Positions 26,724 through 33,888 of a DNA stretch of 64,000 bases are shown one piece after another. How positions within the stretch are numbered: the stretch's first letter is position 1; each line of letters opens with the position of its first letter. The notes beneath the pieces were generated by a model. It searched no databases and had not been told where the DNA came from. It saw only the letters and a program-made list of their open reading frames with translations. The translations under genes and the position numbers were made by a program. Origin of the DNA: Chloroflexota bacterium (lineage in GTDB: Bacteria > Chloroflexota > Dormibacteria > Dormibacterales > Dormibacteraceae); contig VBIW01000039.1 of assembly GCA_005880915.1 (NCBI GenBank), positions 1 to 64,000 of the forward strand. Reading direction: 5' to 3'.

Positions 26724-27924
26724 CTCTCCCCAGGCGGTCATCGTTGCGACCGCGCGGACGCCTATGGGGCGTTATGGCGGTCAGCTAAAGGACATTCGGC
26801 CCGATGACCTCGCCGCGGTCGTCCTGAAAGAGGTTTGCGAACGCGCGCACGTCAAGCCAGCTGAGGTTGAGGACGTGATCCTCGGCTGCGCGAACCAGGC
26901 AGGGGAGGACAACCGCAACGTGGCGCGGATGGCGCTCCTCCTGGCGGGTTTTCCAGTCGAGGTCCCCGGCCAGACGGTGAACCGCCTGTGCGGCTCGGGG
27001 ATGCAGGCGACCATCGCGGCGGCGCGTGAGATCCAGTCGGGCGCGGCCGACATCATGGTTGCGGGTGGCGTCGAGAGCATGACCCGCGCGCCCTGGGTGA
27101 TGCCCAAACCGGACGCCGGATTTCCCCGAGGACCTCAGACCGCTTACGACTCCGCGTTGGGATGGCGCCTCGTCAACTCGAAGATGGCCGCGATGTACGG
27201 GACGCTGCAAATGGGGGAGACCGCGGAGCGCGTCGCCCAGAAATACGAGGTGTCGCGCGAGGACCAGGACGCGTTCGCGCTGCGCAGCCACCAGCGCGCA
27301 GTTGCCGCGCAGAAGTCGGGCAGGCTTGCCGAGGAGATCGTGCCGGTGCTCGTCCCGCAGCGGAAGGGTGACTCGTTGTCATTTGCGGTTGACGAAGGCC
27401 CGCGTCCGGATTCGTCGCTCGAGGCGCTCGGCAAATTGAAACCCGCTTTTGCTGAGAACGGCTCGGTCACCGCGGGCAACGCGTCGCCCCTCAATGACGG
27501 CGCCACGGCGCTCGTTCTGATGTCCGACACCAAAGCGCGCGAACGCGGCCTGAAGCCGCTGGCCCGCCTGGTCGCCGCGGCCCCGGCGGGCGTGCACCCC
27601 GACTACATGGGCATCGGGCCTGTGCCGTCGTCGCTGAAAGCGCTGGAGAAGGCGGGCTTGCAGCTGTCGGACATGCAGGTCGTCGAGCTGAACGAGGCGT
27701 TCGCGTCGCAGTCGCTGGCGTGCATTCGCCTCCTGGGGCTCGACGAGGAGAGGGTCAACGTCAATGGGGGCGCGATCGCGCTGGGTCATCCATTGGGCAG
27801 CAGCGGTGCGCGCCTGGTCAGCACGCTCGTGCGCGAGATGGCGCACCGTGACGCGGAGTACGGCCTGGCCACGATGTGCATCGGCGTGGGCCAGGGCATC
27901 GCGTCGATCTGGCAGCGAATCTGA
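26719..27924 (+). CDS. Acetyl-CoA acyltransferase (thiolase)
   Basis: A 401-residue thiolase that cleaves 3-ketoacyl-CoA or condenses acetyl-CoA. Seen: [16 protein letters not shown], active-site Cys in [43 protein letters not shown] with the catalytic His, and [13 protein letters not shown] with the second Cys. The only start codon that includes the conserved first strand is the GTG at 26719, which lies at the edge of a repeat and follows GGGGAGG with no spacer. The N-terminus VNSPQ is therefore repeat-derived. The upstream frame to 26539 overlaps the previous gene and is not used. Confidence 0.93.
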
Positions 27925-27953
27925 GCGAGCGCGACCCACAAGCAGTCCGGTCG

Positions 27954-28610
27954 ATGTTCGACCGGATCGCGCACCGCTACGACACGATCAACACAGTCCT
28001 GTCCGCCGGGACCGACTCCGGCTGGCGCCGCCGCGCCGCGCGCGAATCAGGCCTGTCTCCGGGAGGGTCGGGGCTCGACGTCGCGTGCGGGTCGGGCAAG
28101 CTGACGGCAGAGCTGGCGAGGCGCGCGGGTCCGACGGGACGGGTGGTGGGGCTCGACTTCAGCCCGCAGATGCTCGAGGTCGCGCGGCGGGAGCATCCAG
28201 GGCTCGAGTTTCTCGAGGGCGACGCGCTCAACCTTCCGTTTGAGAGCGCGAGCTTCGACGCCTCGACAATCGCCTTCGGGCTCCGCAACCTGGCGAACCC
28301 TGTACGCGGCCTTCGCGAGATGCTCCGCGTGGTCAAGCCATCTGGACGCGTGGTCGTCCTGGAGTTCGTCCGCCCGCCGCGCGGCCCCGTCGGCGGCGCT
28401 TACCGCATCTACCTACGCACCCTTCTCCCGGCCGTCGGCGGGCTGATCTCGGGAGACGCGGCCGCCTATCGATACTTGAGCGACACGATCGACTCCTATC
28501 GCACGCCGGGCGAGCTCGGCGACCTGGCGATGCAGGCGGGCTGGTCGGATGTCCACTTCCACGGGCTGGCGATGGGCACCGTCGGGATTCTCTCCGGCCG
28601 GGCACAGTAA
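27954..28610 (+). CDS. menG: Demethylmenaquinone/ubiquinone C-methyltransferase
   Basis: SAM-dependent methyltransferase that completes menaquinone. Seen: VRSMFDRIAHRYDTINTVLSAGTDSGWRR (the UbiE/MenG start), LDVACGSGKL SAM motif I, DALNLPFESASFDASTIAFGLRNLANP, and C-terminal MGTVGILSGRAQ. The ATG at 27954 gives 218 residues; a CTG at 27921 overlapping the thiolase stop would add [11 protein letters not shown], which family members normally have, so the true start may be there. Menaquinone fits with cydAB and the polyprenyl synthase locus at 29447. Confidence 0.92.
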   Translation: MFDRIAHRYDTINTVLSAGTDSGWRRRAARESGLSPGGSGLDVACGSGKLTAELARRAGPTGRVVGLDFSPQMLEVARREHPGLEFLEGDALNLPFESASFDASTIAFGLRNLANPVRGLREMLRVVKPSGRVVVLEFVRPPRGPVGGAYRIYLRTLLPAVGGLISGDAAAYRYLSDTIDSYRTPGELGDLAMQAGWSDVHFHGLAMGTVGILSGRAQ

Positions 28611-28675: not shown

Positions 28676-29446
28676 ATGATGTCGGCACAGAACCGTTTGC
28701 TGGTGGTCTGCGGGTTGCTCATTGCGGTCGCGTCCGCCAGTGTCACAGCGCTGGCGGTCAACCTGTCGCGACCCTCCGGCGCAGCATCGTCTCCTCCGCC
28801 GGTGCTCACGCTCGCCGCCTCGACCTCCGGCAACACGATCACGGTCGTCGGTGTCGGGATCGGTTCTGCGACGTCAAACCAGGCCCAGCTGTATCTGGGC
28901 GTCACCGCGACGCGGCCGAATGTGAGAGACGCGGTCTCGGTCGCGGCAACCGACATGAGCCACCTGTTGAGCGCGGTTCACAACCAGGGCGTCCAGGACA
29001 AGGACATCCAGACCACCGGCGTGTCGGTGTCGCAGCAAACCAACTGCTGCCCGCAGACCATCAACGGCTACAACGCATCGACTCAGATCACCGTGACGGT
29101 GCACGGCGTCACCAGTGCCACGCCTCTCATCGAGGCGGCGGTTGACGCCGTCGGCAACGATCTGCAGATCCAGGGGATCAATCTTTCGGTGGCGGATCAG
29201 GGCGCGATGCTGAAGACCGCGCGCTCGGCTGCGATCAACGACGCCAAGACGAAAGCGCAAGACTGGGCGCAGCTGTCCGGCCATCATGTCGGGGGACTGA
29301 TCGGCGTGACTGAGATCGTCTCCACGACCGGTGGCTTCTCGTGCGACCAGTGCGGTGGCAAGGGCGGCGGGGGCGGAGTCGCGATCCAGCCCGGAGTGAG
29401 CTCCGTCAGCGTGACGGTCGCGGTTACCTTCGAGCTCGCCGCCTAG
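28676..29446 (+). CDS. Secreted SIMPL (DUF541) domain protein
   Basis: A 256-residue exported protein. Signal sequence or membrane anchor RLLVVCGLLIAVASASVTALAV, then NTITVVGVGIGSATSNQAQLYLGVTA, the start of the SIMPL fold, through VSSVSVTVAVTFELAA. GGAGG precedes the tandem ATG codons at 28676/28679. Two unusual Cys pairs (NCCP and CDQCGG) sit in loops and could form disulfides or hold metal. SIMPL proteins are periplasmic or surface proteins of unclear role (BP26, YggE). Its stop abuts the stop of the convergent fusion gene with no bases between. Confidence 0.85.
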   Translation: MMSAQNRLLVVCGLLIAVASASVTALAVNLSRPSGAASSPPPVLTLAASTSGNTITVVGVGIGSATSNQAQLYLGVTATRPNVRDAVSVAATDMSHLLSAVHNQGVQDKDIQTTGVSVSQQTNCCPQTINGYNASTQITVTVHGVTSATPLIEAAVDAVGNDLQIQGINLSVADQGAMLKTARSAAINDAKTKAQDWAQLSGHHVGGLIGVTEIVSTTGGFSCDQCGGKGGGGGVAIQPGVSSVSVTVAVTFELAA

Positions 29447-30829
29447 CTAGGAATTCCGATCCACCGCCGAGCGGGCCAGGCCCACGAGCGTGGGGCGCAG
29501 GCCGTCCAGCTCCACCGTCTCGAGCTCGCGCACGGCCGCCTCGATCAGCGCGTCGGCCTCCTGGCGTACGCGCGGGAGCGCACCACTGGCCGTGACCAGC
29601 TCCGCCACCCGGCCCACCTCCGCGTCGCCGAGGGCGCCCTCGAGCAGGCGCCTGACCTCCGGACCCACCTCGCGATCCTCCGCGGCGTAGATCAGCGGCA
29701 GCGAGAGCACGCGCTGCCGGATGTCGAGCCCGACAGGCTTCCCCGAGCTGGGGCTGAAATCGACCATGTCGTCCGCCATCTGGAACGCGGTACCAAGGAG
29801 GTCGCCGTAGCGGCGCAACGCGCCGACGACCTCCGGGGTCGCCTCTGACAGCAGAGCGCCAGACGCACATGCAGCGGCGAACAGCGAAGCAGTCTTGCCA
29901 CGCACGACACGGAGGTACGACTCTCGATCGCCGGGAAAGGCGCCGCGCAGCGCCACGTCGTCGATCTGCGATGCGCATATCGCTTCGAGGGCTTCGGCCA
30001 GGGCCGAGGTGACAGCTGGGTTGCCGATCTCGGCGATGAGCCGCGTCGCTTTGGCGAAGTAGTAGTCGCCCACCGCGATCGCTCGCTCCGGTCCTTCGGC
30101 CGCAGCAACGGTCGGTCGGCCTCGGCGGTGCGTGCTCTCGTCGACGTAGTCGTCGTGGATGAGCGTGGCGTTGTGCAGCAGCTCCACCGCCGCCGCGAGC
30201 TCCGCAGCGCGCAACGGGTCGTTGCGCGGACCGATGCCGGCCGTCAGCTGGACCAGCTTCGGCCGGAGCCGCTTGCCTCCAGCCTCGACGAGGCGGCGCA
30301 TCGGCACCGCTACCGGTTCGGGGTCGACCATGAGCTGGCGCGCGAGCTCGACTTCGACGAGCGACTCCGGTATCTCCCTGGCGATCGGTCGAGCAAATTC
30401 GCCTTCGAGCTGCAGCGCGAGCTCGCGATCGCGTGGGCCGTCAAGCTCGACTGCGAAAACGGACTGCCAGCGCCCGAGCACCAGCTGGCCTTCTTCGACG
30501 AGCAGCGTGAGAAACGCGCTGAGGAGAAGCTGGCGGCAGTGGGCGTGCCCGTTGACCGGCTCATCGACGGCGACGTCGAACCGGCGCGTGAAGTCGTCGT
30601 GCTCGTAACCTGCGCCGCGGGGCGCGATGCGCTCGAGCATGGCTTCGAAGTCGCGATGTAACAGCGGCTCGTTCTCGTTGACACAAAGTCCAACTGTCGT
30701 GTGCAGGGACTGCAGGTGCACACGCCCTGTGCGGAGCCCGACCCGCTCGACGCGCTCTCGGATCCGTTCGGTGAGATCGATGAACTGGGTGGCCTGGGAG
30801 GTCGCGAACTCGAGCCGCGCCGCGCTCAC
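29447..30829 (-). CDS. YjbQ (UPF0047) domain fused to polyprenyl diphosphate synthase
   Basis: A 460-residue fusion in one continuous frame. Residues 1-145 are a complete YjbQ/UPF0047 domain: SLHTTVGLCVNENEP (43-55), YEHDDF (75-80), NGHAH (93-97), LGRWQSVFAVELDGPRDR (118-135). That family has been linked to thiamine-phosphate synthase activity. Residues 150-460 are a trans-prenyl synthase: GGKRLRP (184-190), first Asp-rich motif HDDYVDES (DDxxD at 226-230), GDYYFAK, GKTASLF, and second motif QMADDMVDF (353-357). It should make the long isoprenoid chain of menaquinone or undecaprenyl-type lipids. GTG start overlaps the small gene upstream as GTGA. Confidence 0.9.
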   Translation of the reverse strand: MSAARLEFATSQATQFIDLTERIRERVERVGLRTGRVHLQSLHTTVGLCVNENEPLLHRDFEAMLERIAPRGAGYEHDDFTRRFDVAVDEPVNGHAHCRQLLLSAFLTLLVEEGQLVLGRWQSVFAVELDGPRDRELALQLEGEFARPIAREIPESLVEVELARQLMVDPEPVAVPMRRLVEAGGKRLRPKLVQLTAGIGPRNDPLRAAELAAAVELLHNATLIHDDYVDESTHRRGRPTVAAAEGPERAIAVGDYYFAKATRLIAEIGNPAVTSALAEALEAICASQIDDVALRGAFPGDRESYLRVVRGKTASLFAAACASGALLSEATPEVVGALRRYGDLLGTAFQMADDMVDFSPSSGKPVGLDIRQRVLSLPLIYAAEDREVGPEVRRLLEGALGDAEVGRVAELVTASGALPRVRQEADALIEAAVRELETVELDGLRPTLVGLARSAVDRNS

Positions 30830-31209
30830 CCTTGTGCCCCGAGGGAAAGCCGAAGCAGGTCTCGGACCGGAGGCGCGGGCTGCTCGGAAGCCGCCGCCGT
30901 CGACATCGATTCGACGGCCCGCGCGAAGGCAACCTGGACGGCAAGAGGCGCGTTGTCGGCAAGGATGCGGGAGCCGCGTGCGAGGCAGAGGTCACCCATC
31001 AGGAGCGTGGTCGGCGGGGCGGCGCGTCCGCCCAGACCCTGGAGCCGGATACCGAGCTCGATCAGCGCCGCGGCCAGGGCGAGCCTGGCCTGGAGGTCCG
31101 GCTCGAAATGCTGGACCGCGTCGAGGTAGTCGCGATAGGCATCGGACAGGCCGTCGGACCACAGTCCCTCGAGACGGTCGAGCTCGCGATCCAGGAGTTG
31201 CACCCCCAT
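30826..31209 (-). CDS. Small helical protein, degenerate prenyl-synthase-like subunit
   Basis: A 127-residue protein starting MGVQLLDRELDRLEGLW; the frame continues upstream to 31629 but only inside the tetR gene. By eye residues 41-105 align with the middle of the prenyl synthase next door: LALAAALIELGIRLQG with LAAAVELLHNATLIHD, and LLMGDLCLARGSRILADN with IAVGDYYFAKATRLIAEI. Both Asp-rich catalytic motifs are absent; the DDYVD loop is deleted. Heterodimeric synthases (Bacillus HepS/HepT) use a small non-catalytic subunit that sets chain length, and I infer that role. It overlaps tetR by one base and the fusion gene by four. Confidence 0.7.
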   Translation of the reverse strand: MGVQLLDRELDRLEGLWSDGLSDAYRDYLDAVQHFEPDLQARLALAAALIELGIRLQGLGGRAAPPTTLLMGDLCLARGSRILADNAPLAVQVAFARAVESMSTAAASEQPAPPVRDLLRLSLGAQG

Positions 31210-31808
31210 CAGACGGCCTCGATGACGCTGCCCGCGAGCTGGCGGAATGCCGAAAGGGCGCGCAGGCAGGACTCGTCGTCGCGGGTCACGACGTAGTAAA
31301 GCCCGAAGCCGAGGACAGTATTCAGGACGAGAGGCACGAGGACGTCGCGCGGCACGGTCAGGCGGATGCGTCCGTCCTCCTCCAGCCGGTCGAGCTGTTC
31401 CTGGATCACCTCGCGGTAGCGCGTGAAGAGCTCGGGCAAATAGGCCCGGAGGCGTTCGGTCCGCGGAGCCTGGACCAGGAGGTCGAAGGCGGCGAGCTGG
31501 ACATCGCCCAGTCGCCGCAGGGAATCCCAGAGCGACTCGACCCCGACCTCGAGCACCTCCAGCGGGTCGGTGAGCTGGTTCAGGGTTCGGCGCAGCTCCT
31601 CGACAGACTTGGCGGTCAGGTAGCGCCACGCCTCGACGAGGAGCTCGGACTTGGTCGGGAACCAGTACTGGAGGTTGCCGATCGCCACGCCGGCTTTGGA
31701 GGCGATGGAGCGGACGCTGGTGCCCGAGTAGCCGTTTTCGAGCAGGGAATCCGCCGCCGCGTGAATGATCTGGTCTCGGGTGCTCTCAGTCGCGGTCGCC
31801 CCGGTCAT
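31209..31808 (-). CDS. TetR-family transcriptional regulator
   Basis: A 199-residue TetR repressor. The helix-turn-helix is clear: RDQIIHAAADSLLENGYSGTSVRSIASKAGVAIGNLQYWFPTKSELLVEAW. The frame runs upstream to 32081, but the ATG at 31806-31808 begins MTGATATESTRDQI, the normal distance from the helix-turn-helix. Its start codon is part of the palindrome CATACGTATG. It leads an overlapping operon with the small subunit and the YjbQ-prenyl synthase, so it likely regulates that operon in response to a lipid or isoprenoid ligand. Confidence 0.9.
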   Translation of the reverse strand: MTGATATESTRDQIIHAAADSLLENGYSGTSVRSIASKAGVAIGNLQYWFPTKSELLVEAWRYLTAKSVEELRRTLNQLTDPLEVLEVGVESLWDSLRRLGDVQLAAFDLLVQAPRTERLRAYLPELFTRYREVIQEQLDRLEEDGRIRLTVPRDVLVPLVLNTVLGFGLYYVVTRDDESCLRALSAFRQLAGSVIEAV

Positions 31809-31826
31809 ACGTATGTACCAGCATAC
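31806..31826. promoter_or_regulatory. Palindromes over the tetR start, probable operator
   Basis: CATACGTATG (31806-31815) is a perfect palindrome including the ATG, and GTATG-n6-CATAC (31811-31826) overlaps it. A TetR dimer bound here would block its own operon. Confidence 0.5.
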
Positions 31827-31883
31827 TGAGGACCGGTTCAGAAGGTGTGGCCGGGCGAGGCACGCAGACGGAATTTCGACCCG

Positions 31884-32022: not shown

Positions 32023-32664
32023 ATGAAGTCGATCGCCGAAGCCTTTCCCAACGGTGTGTGCGGCGTGCTGCGCACCGACAACGCCGAAGCGGGCTTTCAG
32101 GCCTGCCTGACCGCGATGGAAGGCGGCGTCATGACGATCGAGGTGACGAAAACCGTCCCGTCGTGCTTCGAGATGATCCGCGGGCTTATCGCGACGACGA
32201 TGGGCCGGTACCCAGTCGGCGTCGGCACTGTCTGGGATCCGGGCGCTGTCCGCGAGGCGAAGGACGCGGGAGCGTCATTCGTGGTGACTCCTGTCCTCCT
32301 GCCCGAGGTCGCCGACGCCTGCCGCCAGGAGGACATCCTCTGCGTCCTGGGCGCGCTGACCCCGACCGAGATCTACCAGGCGCGTCTCGCAGGCGCGGCA
32401 CTCGTGAAGGTCTTCCCGATCACCCCGGTCGGCGGTCCGCGCTACATCGAGTCGCTGAACGGACCGATGGGCGGTGTGCCCTTTTGGGTTTCCGGTGGCG
32501 TGAAGATCGAAGACATCGGCGCCTACCTCCGCCTGGGGGTCAAGGCGGTGGGGCTCACCGCCTCGCTGTTCCCGCCGGAGGCGCTGGCGAAGGGAGACAT
32601 GGACACGATCGGGCGGAATGCGGAACGGGCGGCGCAGGCGGCAGCGCACGCGGTCGGCGACTAG
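32023..32664 (+). CDS. KDPG/KHG aldolase family protein
   Basis: A 213-residue class I aldolase, expected to split 2-keto-3-deoxy-6-phosphogluconate into pyruvate and glyceraldehyde 3-phosphate. Seen: VGVGTVWDPGAVREAKDAGASFVVTPVL, GALTPTEIYQARLAGAALVKVFPITPVGGPRYIESLNGPMGGVPFWVSGGV, with the Schiff-base Lys in LVKVFP. The early segment TIEVTKTVPS replaces the usual IEITL-TPGA, so substrate may differ. A TAATCT box (32007-32012) lies 10 nt before the ATG. No Entner-Doudoroff dehydratase is adjacent. Confidence 0.85.
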   Translation: MKSIAEAFPNGVCGVLRTDNAEAGFQACLTAMEGGVMTIEVTKTVPSCFEMIRGLIATTMGRYPVGVGTVWDPGAVREAKDAGASFVVTPVLLPEVADACRQEDILCVLGALTPTEIYQARLAGAALVKVFPITPVGGPRYIESLNGPMGGVPFWVSGGVKIEDIGAYLRLGVKAVGLTASLFPPEALAKGDMDTIGRNAERAAQAAAHAVGD

Positions 32665-32749
32665 ATGTAATTCCTGGATAGGGAACGACGTTCGGCGAAG
32701 AATTTGGACGGCAAGTTCACCTTGGCGCCGAAATTTCCTGTTAGATCTC

Positions 32750-32778
32750 TTGATCGGCAAACATTTGTTTGGTACCAT
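32750..32778 (+). promoter_or_regulatory. Promoter of the DUF222/HNH gene, leaderless
   Basis: TTGATC (32750-32755), 17-bp spacer, TACCAT (32773-32778), then 6 nt to the ATG at 32785. The surrounding 100 bases are notably AT-richer than the rest of the window. Confidence 0.65.
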
Positions 32779-32784
32779 CACTTC

Positions 32785-33888
32785 ATGATCCTCGCGGAGC
32801 GTCTGCACACCGAGGACAACGTCGCGCGCGAGCTGATCGAGACCGAGCACCTGATCGGCATCCTCCAGCTCAAGGCGAGCCGGCTGGCGGCAGAGCTCTC
32901 CGCGACCAGGCGCTGGGACAGCGAGGGCTACAACAGCGCCGGCGACTGGATGCGCTTCAAGTGCCAGGTCACCAACACGGTTGCGTGGGACCGCATTCGC
33001 GTTGGCGAGGAGCTGCACCGGATGCCCGAGTCGGAGCAGGCGGTCTACGACGGCGAGATCGGCTACGCGCACCTGAAGGTGATGGCGAGGACAGCCGAAG
33101 TCGTGGGCGCGAAATTCGACGAATTGATGCTCTTGCCCCTGGCCAGGGACACTTCTCCCGGAAAGTTCTATTACAAGAGCCTGCATTTCCGGCACGCGGT
33201 CGACGCCAAGGCTTACTGCGCCGAACAGACGGAGCTGGTGGAGAATCGGCGGCTGTCGCTGAGCACCGCGGAAGACGGCTGCCTGCTCGTCAGCGGAGTC
33301 CTCGACCCGGTTGGCGGGGCTGCGGTGCGGACCGCATTGGAGCCGCTGGCGCGCAAGTCGGGGGCTGGCGACGACCGGGAGCTAGAGCGGCGCTATGCCG
33401 ACGCCCTGGTCGAGCTGGCCTGCGGGGGCAAGCCGGCAAATCTTCACGTCACGGCCACAATCGAAACGTTGAAGGGGATGGTTGGCGCCGCAGGAGGGGA
33501 GATGGAGTTCTCGCTTCCACTTTCGTCGTCGACCATCGAGCGCATGGCGTGCGACTGCAGCGTGAGTCGGGTGCTGTTGAGCGAGGAGTCGGTGGTCATC
33601 GACATCGGCCGCTCGCGGCGAGTCATCGCCGGACCGGCGAAGCGGGCCCTAAACGCGCGCGACGGACATTGCGTGTGGCCCGGCTGCGAACGGCCGGCAT
33701 CGTGGTGCGACGGCCATCACCTGGTGCATTGGATTCGCGGTGGCTCGACCGACCTGGACAACCTGGTCCTGCTCTGTCACCGGCATCACTGGAAAGTTCA
33801 TGAGGGCGGCTGGCAATTGGTCAAGACCGACGATCGCGACATCGTGCCGATCGCACCGACGATCACCTTCGGACGCGGACCGGACTAG
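32785..33888 (+). CDS. DUF222 domain protein with C-terminal HNH endonuclease motif (13E12 type)
   Basis: A 367-residue protein of the family repeated in actinobacterial genomes. DUF222 helical domain at residues about 1-250 (HLIGILQLKASRLAAELSATRRWDSEGYNSAGDWM), C-terminal HNH: CVWPGCERPASWCDGHHLVHWIRGGSTDLDNLVLLCHRHHWKVHEGGW. The frame opens at 32704, but the ATG at 32785 is 6 nt after a -10 box with a -35 box 17 bp further up, so it is chosen as a leaderless start. Biological role of the family is not known; some copies lie near mobile DNA, yet nothing mobile is seen here. Confidence 0.88.
   Translation: MILAERLHTEDNVARELIETEHLIGILQLKASRLAAELSATRRWDSEGYNSAGDWMRFKCQVTNTVAWDRIRVGEELHRMPESEQAVYDGEIGYAHLKVMARTAEVVGAKFDELMLLPLARDTSPGKFYYKSLHFRHAVDAKAYCAEQTELVENRRLSLSTAEDGCLLVSGVLDPVGGAAVRTALEPLARKSGAGDDRELERRYADALVELACGGKPANLHVTATIETLKGMVGAAGGEMEFSLPLSSSTIERMACDCSVSRVLLSEESVVIDIGRSRRVIAGPAKRALNARDGHCVWPGCERPASWCDGHHLVHWIRGGSTDLDNLVLLCHRHHWKVHEGGWQLVKTDDRDIVPIAPTITFGRGPD

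Follow-up and report, generated by a model that had tools for sequence, protein, structure and literature searches.

The stretch of DNA analysed here (the window; 64,000 nucleotides) carries three overlapping genes, encoding a TetR-family regulator, a 127-residue protein and a fusion of a YjbQ domain to a polyprenyl diphosphate synthase (Table 1). The open reading frames agree with the layout originally predicted, with an overlap of 1 bp between the TetR and small genes and of 4 bp between the small gene and the fusion gene. A menG gene had been placed about 0.8 kb from the fusion; the measured distance from its end to the fusion stop codon is 836 bp, the two genes are convergent, and the menG product scores 232 bits against NF001244 (cut-off 216). 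The SIMPL gene lying between them was rejected as a component of the system, as it is found in just 3 of 32 other fusion loci. The interval first drawn around the three genes ended at position 31829. It thereby extends 21 bp beyond the TetR start on the upstream side and covers the putative promoter/operator.

Table 1. Features of the locus, in window coordinates.
Feature	Position	Strand	Remarks
Fusion gene, YjbQ::polyprenyl synthase	29447..30829	-	460 aa, GTG start
YjbQ/UPF0047 domain, isoprenoid-associated subfamily	30389..30829	-	approximately residues 1-147; tree and consensus
trans-Polyprenyl diphosphate synthase domain, long-chain type	29450..30373	-	approximately residues 153-460; alignment A2
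Small gene, degenerate prenyl-synthase-like, putative non-catalytic subunit	30826..31209	-	127 aa
TetR-family regulator	31209..31808	-	199 aa
TACATACGTATG, putative operator overlapping the TetR start codon	31806..31817	-	holds the 10-bp palindrome CATACGTATG
menG/ubiE methyltransferase, convergent neighbour outside the operon	27876..28610	+	NF001244
SIMPL/DUF541 gene, between menG and the fusion gene	28676-29446		

A search of the fusion protein against Pfam, which the original prediction had called for, matched both expected domains: UPF0047 (PF01894) at residues 18–140 (E = 2.3e-30; 105.6 bits versus a cut-off of 27) and polyprenyl_synt (PF00348) at residues 175–401 (E = 9e-56; 189 bits versus a cut-off of 27). 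The YjbQ half also exceeds the NCBIfam cut-off for TIGR00149 (84.5 bits versus 67.75), and all of the motifs named beforehand were found, namely HTT, YEHDD, NGHAH, GRWQ and DGPR in the YjbQ half, and GGKRLRP, DDYVD (the first Asp motif) and DDMVD (the second) in the synthase half. The first Asp motif is invariant across the 32 rows of alignment A2, and an Ala lies five residues before it (position -5). A small residue at this position fits long-chain prenyl synthases, and the synthase half is predicted to be of the long-chain type. Among NCBIfam families the fusion scored highest against NF041169, the polyprenyl transferase cargo of family 2 encapsulins, but its 191 bits lie far under the cut-off of 450, and we therefore rejected the fusion as an encapsulin cargo.

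The hosts of the fusion are soil bacteria of the Dormibacteraceae. The fused gene is a single open frame in 32 of the 42 genomes of this GTDB family, including that of the window, which rules out the frameshift or assembly artefact that had been considered a possible source of the fusion. In three other genomes (G002, G010 and G011) the open frame spans both domains and stops at a contig edge, in four (G003, G015, G018 and G034) the fusion is cut by contig ends, and in one (G007) it reads as two overlapping frames; G021 (71% complete) and G023 (87% complete) have neither the fusion nor the small gene. In G012, the first ~32 residues of the fused frame are altered. Both halves are under purifying selection, with dN/dS values of 0.09–0.19 for the YjbQ half and 0.06–0.09 for the synthase half in 7 chosen pairs of 31, several of which have dS above 1. 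Across 32 fusions the HTT, NENE, HDD, WQ and DGPR residues show little or no variation, and one His of NGHAH is replaced by Gln in L084 and L085. Beyond the phylum, fusions were searched against plasmids only, where none of the 96 matching records covered at least 80% of the YjbQ::synthase fusion.

The regulator matches TetR_N (PF00440; E = 2.9e-10; 40.2 bits versus a cut-off of 24), shows dN/dS of 0.006–0.047 in 7 pairs, and is encoded in 31 of the 32 other fusion loci, with none beside the copy in G012. The putative operator TACATACGTATG, with its palindrome CATACGTATG, was found at 34 of 36 TetR starts. It has one exact copy per genome in 15/15 family genomes searched, as compared with 0/3 genomes outside the family and 0/18 for a backward control. 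Because the palindrome at its start codon occurs once in each family genome searched, the TetR protein looks dedicated; it may bind there as its operator, presumably in response to a ligand, and the gene trio is apparently self-regulated.

The small gene is present in 40 of the 42 family genomes and lies directly 5' of the fusion gene, with a 4- or 1-bp overlap, in 28 of 33 loci. Its product matched no Pfam or NCBIfam family at E ≤ 1. A profile of the small proteins matched 51 synthase domains that are not fused to YjbQ (E = 5.3e-5). This match to prenyl synthases covers 42 columns with the profile alone and 84 columns when sister-family members are added, and in either case none of 100 column shuffles scored as high. 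The consensus of alignment A1, from which two truncated small proteins (L092 and L102) were omitted, has no DDxxD, and the first Asp motif is absent. The profile comparison thus bears out the predicted resemblance to a prenyl synthase lacking this motif, and by this measure the small protein counts as a degenerate relative of prenyl synthases.

The original prediction had likened the pair to HepS/HepT of Bacillus. As in that system and in HexA/HexB of Micrococcus luteus, a large catalytic subunit bearing the two Asp motifs is accompanied by a small one, here putative. The PDB matches of the synthase domain include HexB (3aqb_B) as well as a HepT entry (9kp1_B). HexA itself lacks the Asp motifs. 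It is thought to help set chain length, according to PMC7839719. In contrast to HepS and HexA, the small protein of the window did not match PF07307 at E ≤ 1, nor did four relatives at E ≤ 10, and its PDB sequence matches include neither a HexA nor a HepS chain. Across 201 Chloroflexota genomes PF07307 gave no match above the cut-off and 19 weak ones, which in those loci read fall on prenyl synthases. We therefore rejected the small protein as HepS/HexA by sequence, neither Pfam nor the PDB having yielded such a match; the analogy holds for a possible mode of working and fails for family membership. What adjoins the large-subunit gene is, as with HepS and HexA, a prenyl-synthase-derived protein without DDxxD, its fold being judged from sequence. 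Unlike in either known system, the large subunit here bears a YjbQ domain.

A sister family, f3, offers a natural counterpart, in which a small-like domain and a synthase are joined in one frame (7 ORFs, from which YjbQ is absent). The small-domain match is weak, with domain i-E values of 0.0012 to 4.4 in 5 of the 7 ORFs. A small-profile search of 18 f3 genomes gave matches at E ≤ 0.1 in 8, of which only 3 were below 1e-4, and the five weaker matches lie in the synthase itself. Each of the 8 f3 genomes tested has two synthases, one of which has Phe at -5 (short-chain type) in all 8; the small-fused synthase has Ala at -5 in the 5 of 8 genomes read and is the only long-chain-type synthase there. 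Since the small protein resembles a degenerate synthase and f3 fuses a similar domain to a synthase, the fusion and small protein likely form a heteromeric long-chain synthase, as first proposed. The C-terminal half of the fusion would be the catalytic subunit, and the 127-residue protein a non-catalytic, degenerate prenyl-synthase half which, in the manner of HexA or HepS, would complete or gauge the cavity that binds the chain.

The likeliest product of such an enzyme would be the menaquinone side chain, a role for the operon that is plausible but indirect. In addition to the fused enzyme, a canonical synthase with the long-chain-type Ala at -5 was found in 13 of 16 family genomes checked, comprising that of the window (on contig C1) and 12 of the 15 others; the fused synthase therefore need not make the quinone tail. 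The C1 enzyme could instead supply this tail while the operon makes another long-chain isoprenoid, such as a carotenoid, membrane lipid or cell-wall precursor. We regard this division of labour as somewhat unlikely, since menG is present in 29 of the 32 other fusion loci, only two synthases were found in G025, where the non-fused one is of short-chain type, and the small-fused enzyme is the sole long-chain type in the five f3 genomes whose two synthases were both read. A search of open-licence papers, in which absence is not proof, found none linking Dormibacterota with menaquinone.

UPF0047 is a very widespread family, found in 10 of 14 well-known bacterial and archaeal control genomes. A second fusion emerged, in which type-2 IPP isomerase (IDI2) carries a C-terminal YjbQ domain of the same subfamily, in six Chloroflexota families. 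Seven such proteins exceed both NCBIfam cut-offs, and in the same scans 5 of the 7 adjoin squalene/hopanoid genes. Most type-2 isomerases are unfused: a match was found in 254 of 400 genomes, with 6 whole YjbQ fusions among the matches listed. None of 171 matching plasmid records covered at least 80% of IDI2::YjbQ. A tree with 11 of the 32 synthase-fused rows (the synthase tree likewise used 11 of the 32 YjbQ-fused rows), and with L103 left out as a near-copy of L241, set the synthase-fused and IDI2-fused domains apart from ordinary stand-alone YjbQ. Both share an insertion before NGHAH, DD-F-RR...DEP (DD-x-RR...DE), that is absent from ordinary stand-alone YjbQ of the class in a comparison of consensus sequences. 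The YjbQ half of the fusion in the window exceeds both curated cut-offs and keeps the motifs of UPF0047/YjbQ, and differs from ordinary members in this extra segment and in being joined to an isoprenoid enzyme. The fusion differs from IDI2::YjbQ in the partner enzyme, in the reversed domain order and in a menG rather than mostly hopanoid context. The subfamily also includes stand-alone YjbQ proteins in family f4, beside genes that read as metallo-hydrolase-like and zinc-ribbon-like, not isoprenoid. The nearest solved chains to the YjbQ domain are 1xbf and 1vmh.

Neither YjbQ::synthase nor IDI2::YjbQ was found described in the open-licence literature searched, where YjbQ/UPF0047 papers had no isoprenoid subject in their titles or abstract openings and nothing combined secondary thiamine-phosphate synthase with isoprenoid; such absence is not proof. 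A 2021 paper still lists YjbQ among proteins of unknown function (PMC7954711). As IPP and DMAPP are the ligands common to the isomerase and the synthase, the two fusions point to an action of YjbQ on C5 or allylic diphosphates, which would be consistent with weak thiamin-phosphate-synthase activity. Such activity has been reported for YjbQ. We suggest, tentatively, that at least one UPF0047/YjbQ subfamily consists of isoprenoid enzymes acting on IPP, DMAPP or allylic prenyl diphosphates, the thiamin-phosphate-synthase activity being a by-product of allylic- or benzylic-type diphosphate chemistry.

The domain might instead be a scaffold that oligomerises and clusters isoprenoid enzymes without catalysis, as its attachment at opposite ends of two enzyme families (N-terminal in the synthase, C-terminal in the isomerase) would allow. 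Solved YjbQ entries are often multi-chain (three chains in 1xbf, six in 1vph), which by itself is no proof of oligomers, and the near-invariance of the HTT/NENE/HDD/WQ/DGPR residues across the 32 fusions exceeds what a scaffold would need; we consider this unlikely. Prenyl synthases release pyrophosphate at every elongation step, and the conserved YjbQ residues could serve to remove or sense it, as the original prediction had suggested, and so pull the synthase reaction forward. Type-2 IPP isomerase makes no pyrophosphate, and its fusion to the same subfamily in the seven proteins scanned disfavours this role, which we regard as improbable; this part of the earlier interpretation is not supported, the fusion being real and conserved and the heteromeric synthase likely. 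A chance joining of a genuine thiamin-phosphate synthase, in the form of the YjbQ half, to an unrelated enzyme is very improbable, given that both fusion types have isoprenoid-enzyme partners and that the window genome encodes another, ordinary YjbQ, even if YjbQ is taken as an alternative to ThiE in PMC5613172.

Taken as a whole, we consider it rather probable that the TetR, small and fusion genes form an autoregulated operon for a long-chain trans-prenyl diphosphate synthase of two parts, with a YjbQ domain acting on shared ligands, whereby the N-terminal domain would bind and process IPP/DMAPP or other allylic diphosphates, not pyrophosphate, and the product would most likely be the menaquinone side chain. 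The Dormibacteraceae would represent a further lineage with a putative prenyl synthase of heteromeric type. Its small subunit is found both free and fused, which may aid the study of the origin of inactive subunits and of their part in setting chain length. For YjbQ, its presence on two different isoprenoid enzymes provides a testable clue to its function and a short list of candidate substrates.

The original prediction, that a YjbQ domain and a polyprenyl diphosphate synthase are joined in a single 460-residue protein, proved correct: the fusion is real rather than an artefact, occupying one frame in 32 of the 42 genomes of the GTDB family Dormibacteraceae (14 genera; the order's genome set is the same 42), and the domain search it had called for matched both UPF0047 (residues 18–140, E = 2.3e-30) and polyprenyl_synt (residues 175–401, E = 9e-56). 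The protein also scored 84.5 against the YjbQ profile TIGR00149 (cut-off 67.75). In three further genomes the frame covers both domains before running into a contig end, and one carries them split into two overlapping frames. When 301 evenly sampled Chloroflexota genomes were searched (up to 5 candidates scored per genome), the 16 whole-length fusions among the matches listed were all from Dormibacteraceae. Across the 32-row alignment A2, one row of which has an altered N-terminus, NENE, HDD, WQ and DGPR were invariant in the YjbQ half and HTT nearly so. For 7 pairs selected from 31, several of them with dS > 1, dN/dS was 0.07–0.29 for the 127-residue small protein, 0.006–0.047 for TetR, 0.06–0.09 for the synthase half and 0.09–0.19 for the YjbQ half, indicating that purifying selection acts on both halves of the fusion. 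The window's assembly (4.13 Mb, 96% complete, 8.6% contaminated) additionally encodes an ordinary stand-alone YjbQ and a canonical prenyl synthase.

Features of the fusion operon and of the related fusions (IDI2, type-2 IPP isomerase; f3, sister family)
Feature	Location	Strand	Remark
TetR	31808-31209	minus	1-bp overlap with small gene
127-aa small protein	31209-30826	minus	4-bp overlap with fusion
460-aa fusion	30829-29447	minus	UPF0047 joined to polyprenyl_synt
Putative operator TACATACGTATG	31806-31817		holds palindrome CATACGTATG overlapping TetR start codon
Small-like domain::prenyl synthase	L169 310-1896	minus	f3
Small-like domain::prenyl synthase	L172 5190-6731	minus	f3
Small-like domain::prenyl synthase	L173, L174, L186, L187		f3
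IDI2::YjbQ	L094 4172-5674	minus	
IDI2::YjbQ	L093 117-1628	plus	
IDI2::YjbQ	L241 3-1439	minus	
IDI2::YjbQ	L288 8275-9768	plus	
IDI2::YjbQ	L289 3181-4668	minus	
IDI2::YjbQ	L290 7880-9346	minus	
IDI2::YjbQ	L291 7293-8825	plus	

The small protein is present in 40 of the 42 family genomes, and a scan of named genomes returned 38 loci assigned to Chloroflexi bacterium, Dormi(i)bacterota or Candidatus Dormiibacter, itself a member of Dormibacteraceae, except for one 'Bacillota' and one unidentified organism. Of 33 loci, 28 show a 4- or 1-bp overlap between its gene and the fusion, and three more have the two no more than 2 bp apart; the remaining two are the split and the altered copy. Profile scans gave no family match for the small protein. 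A profile of 35 relatives, compared with 51 synthase domains lacking the YjbQ fusion (seven from f3), gave a 42-column alignment in the region of the helix that follows the first Asp motif (E = 5.3e-5, probability 67%; score 36.4, whereas 100 column-shuffled controls scored at most 22.6). Once sister-family members were included, the match extended collinearly to 84 columns (E = 5.6e-5; shuffled controls at most 18.6), the DDxxD stretch being absent from the small protein and the next GD helix retained. Weak PDB matches (E = 0.033 and up) were to prenyl synthases at the same helix, apart from one designed helical protein (E = 7.4). We take the small protein to be the first half of a prenyl synthase in degenerate form.

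The best evidence that the small protein and the synthase would work together is a natural fusion in f3. When 110 genomes from the class were scanned at E ≤ 0.1, hits to the small-protein profile came from 40 Dormibacteraceae, 8 of 18 f3 genomes and one genome of family f4; three of the f3 matches were below 1e-4 and five weaker ones fell inside the synthase itself. In the seven f3 ORFs read, one of them interrupted by unknown bases, a small-like domain lies N-terminal of the synthase in a single frame, with no YjbQ between them. Individually these domains scored i-E 5.4e-8 to 4.4, and six pieces taken jointly matched the family profile at E = 1.4e-9. The residue five before the first Asp motif (position -5) predicts prenyl synthase chain length. 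Each of the eight f3 genomes tested has two PF00348 genes, one of the short-chain type with Phe at -5 (8/8) and the other the small-fused form, with Ala at -5 in the five of eight read and in seven ORFs overall. In a quick tree, the f3 and YjbQ-fused forms were two clades outside the ordinary long-chain synthases. HexA/HexB and HepS/HepT, two-part synthases described in PMC7839719, share in outline the proposed mode of working of the small protein and fusion. Since the small protein did not match PF07307, the HepS/HexA-type family, we liken it to these subunits in working and do not class it with them.

TetR and the small gene overlap by 4 or 1 bp at 30 of 35 loci and are at least 175 bp apart at three; among the neighbourhoods compared, TetR was absent beside the G012 copy. 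At 34 of the 36 TetR starts TACATACGTATG is present, and the remaining two are cut off or hold unknown bases; a TANNNT box lies upstream in 31 of 36. Among 18 whole genomes searched, each of the 15 from the family held exactly one copy of TACATACGTATG and the three from outside held none, while the backward control gave 0 in 18/18; in G022 it lies on another contig, there too at the TetR start. Since the palindromic site sits at the TetR start in a single copy per genome, the pattern fits a repressor dedicated to the TetR–small–fusion operon, whose mRNA would have little or no leader. TetR is much better conserved than the adjoining enzymes (95–100% identity at 12 loci of the genus; dN/dS down to 0.006). 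A KDPG/KHG aldolase-family gene (32023–32664) diverges from TetR and is present at 28 of 32 fusion loci, despite which the exact TetR site is found nowhere else in the genome. The 32704–33888 product, with an HNH-like motif at its end, presumably resembles DUF222/13E12 repeat proteins.

Three observations favour a quinone tail as the likely product. menG is present at 29 of 32 fusion loci (window excluded), and at the other three the contig ends 1.0–2.7 kb from the fusion. In the f3 genome G084 (L172), a NuoM-like gene lies ~3 kb away (TIGR01972, 202 bits, below the cut-off of 264); none of the three intervening genes matched an NCBIfam profile at E ≤ 1e-10. In G025 (92% complete), the search for synthases yielded just two, the fused one and one of the short-chain type. 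Against this role, 13 of 16 family genomes checked also carry a canonical synthase whose residue at -5 is Ala. The second long-chain-type synthase of the window's genome (contig C1, L104 7184-8128, minus strand) adjoins a response regulator and a uroporphyrinogen-III synthase-like gene, and none of its five scanned neighbours is a quinone gene.

Tracing the YjbQ domain revealed a second fusion in the same class, in which this domain is joined C-terminally to type-2 IPP isomerase. Seven such proteins exceeded both NCBIfam cut-offs (IPP_isom_2, 306–394 bits versus 281; YjbQ, 82–116 versus 68). In a 400-genome sample of Chloroflexota (no more than 3 candidates scored per genome; some match in 254), whole or nearly whole fusions among the matches listed came from G018, G412, G124, G112, G174 and G109, of six GTDB families; G165 has it in two frames, G005 as a contig-end piece, and the remaining isomerases listed were unfused. 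G017 also carries it. As G412 is a two-contig genome, this fusion is no assembly error. The pieces at L103 8115-9038 (G005) and L241 3-1544 (G109) are nearly identical although the families differ, which hints at a contig placed in the wrong bin. In the same scans, squalene/hopanoid genes adjoined five of the seven loci: HpnC-like genes at four (228–234 bits, just under the cut-off of 250), HpnD and a cut copy of squalene-hopene cyclase at L094, the cyclase at L288 and L291, and HpnH at L291. By our reading of the sequence L093 adjoins HpnC/HpnD-like genes; L241 follows a prenyl synthase, outside any such cluster. Neither fusion was found described in the open-licence literature searched for YjbQ/UPF0047 and isoprenoid themes.

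We built a quick tree from 64 YjbQ domains (11 synthase-fused sampled, 8 isomerase-fused, 7 f4 stand-alone, 31 ordinary stand-alone), in which the synthase-fused, isomerase-fused and one f4 stand-alone group clustered together (SH-aLRT 82, with long-branch warnings) and, with three divergent f2 rows, were separated from the 31 ordinary copies (97). The three groups have in common an added DD-x-RR...DE segment. At L238, L239, L240 and L242, f4 stand-alone copies of this isoprenoid type lie near what we read as putative metallo-beta-lactamase-fold and zinc-ribbon proteins.

Two different partners within one pathway suggest a metabolite common to both. Type-2 IPP isomerase interconverts IPP and DMAPP without releasing pyrophosphate, and thus the ligands it has in common with the synthase are IPP and DMAPP. 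Thiamin phosphate synthase has been reported as a side activity of YjbQ. In that reaction pyrophosphate is displaced from a methylene diphosphate in activated form, which resembles an allylic diphosphate in its chemistry. Against a role with C5 or allylic diphosphates, the f4 stand-alone members do not adjoin isoprenoid genes. Given the common ligands and the resemblance of the thiamin phosphate synthase reaction to allylic chemistry, we propose that the YjbQ domain may bind or process C5/allylic diphosphates.
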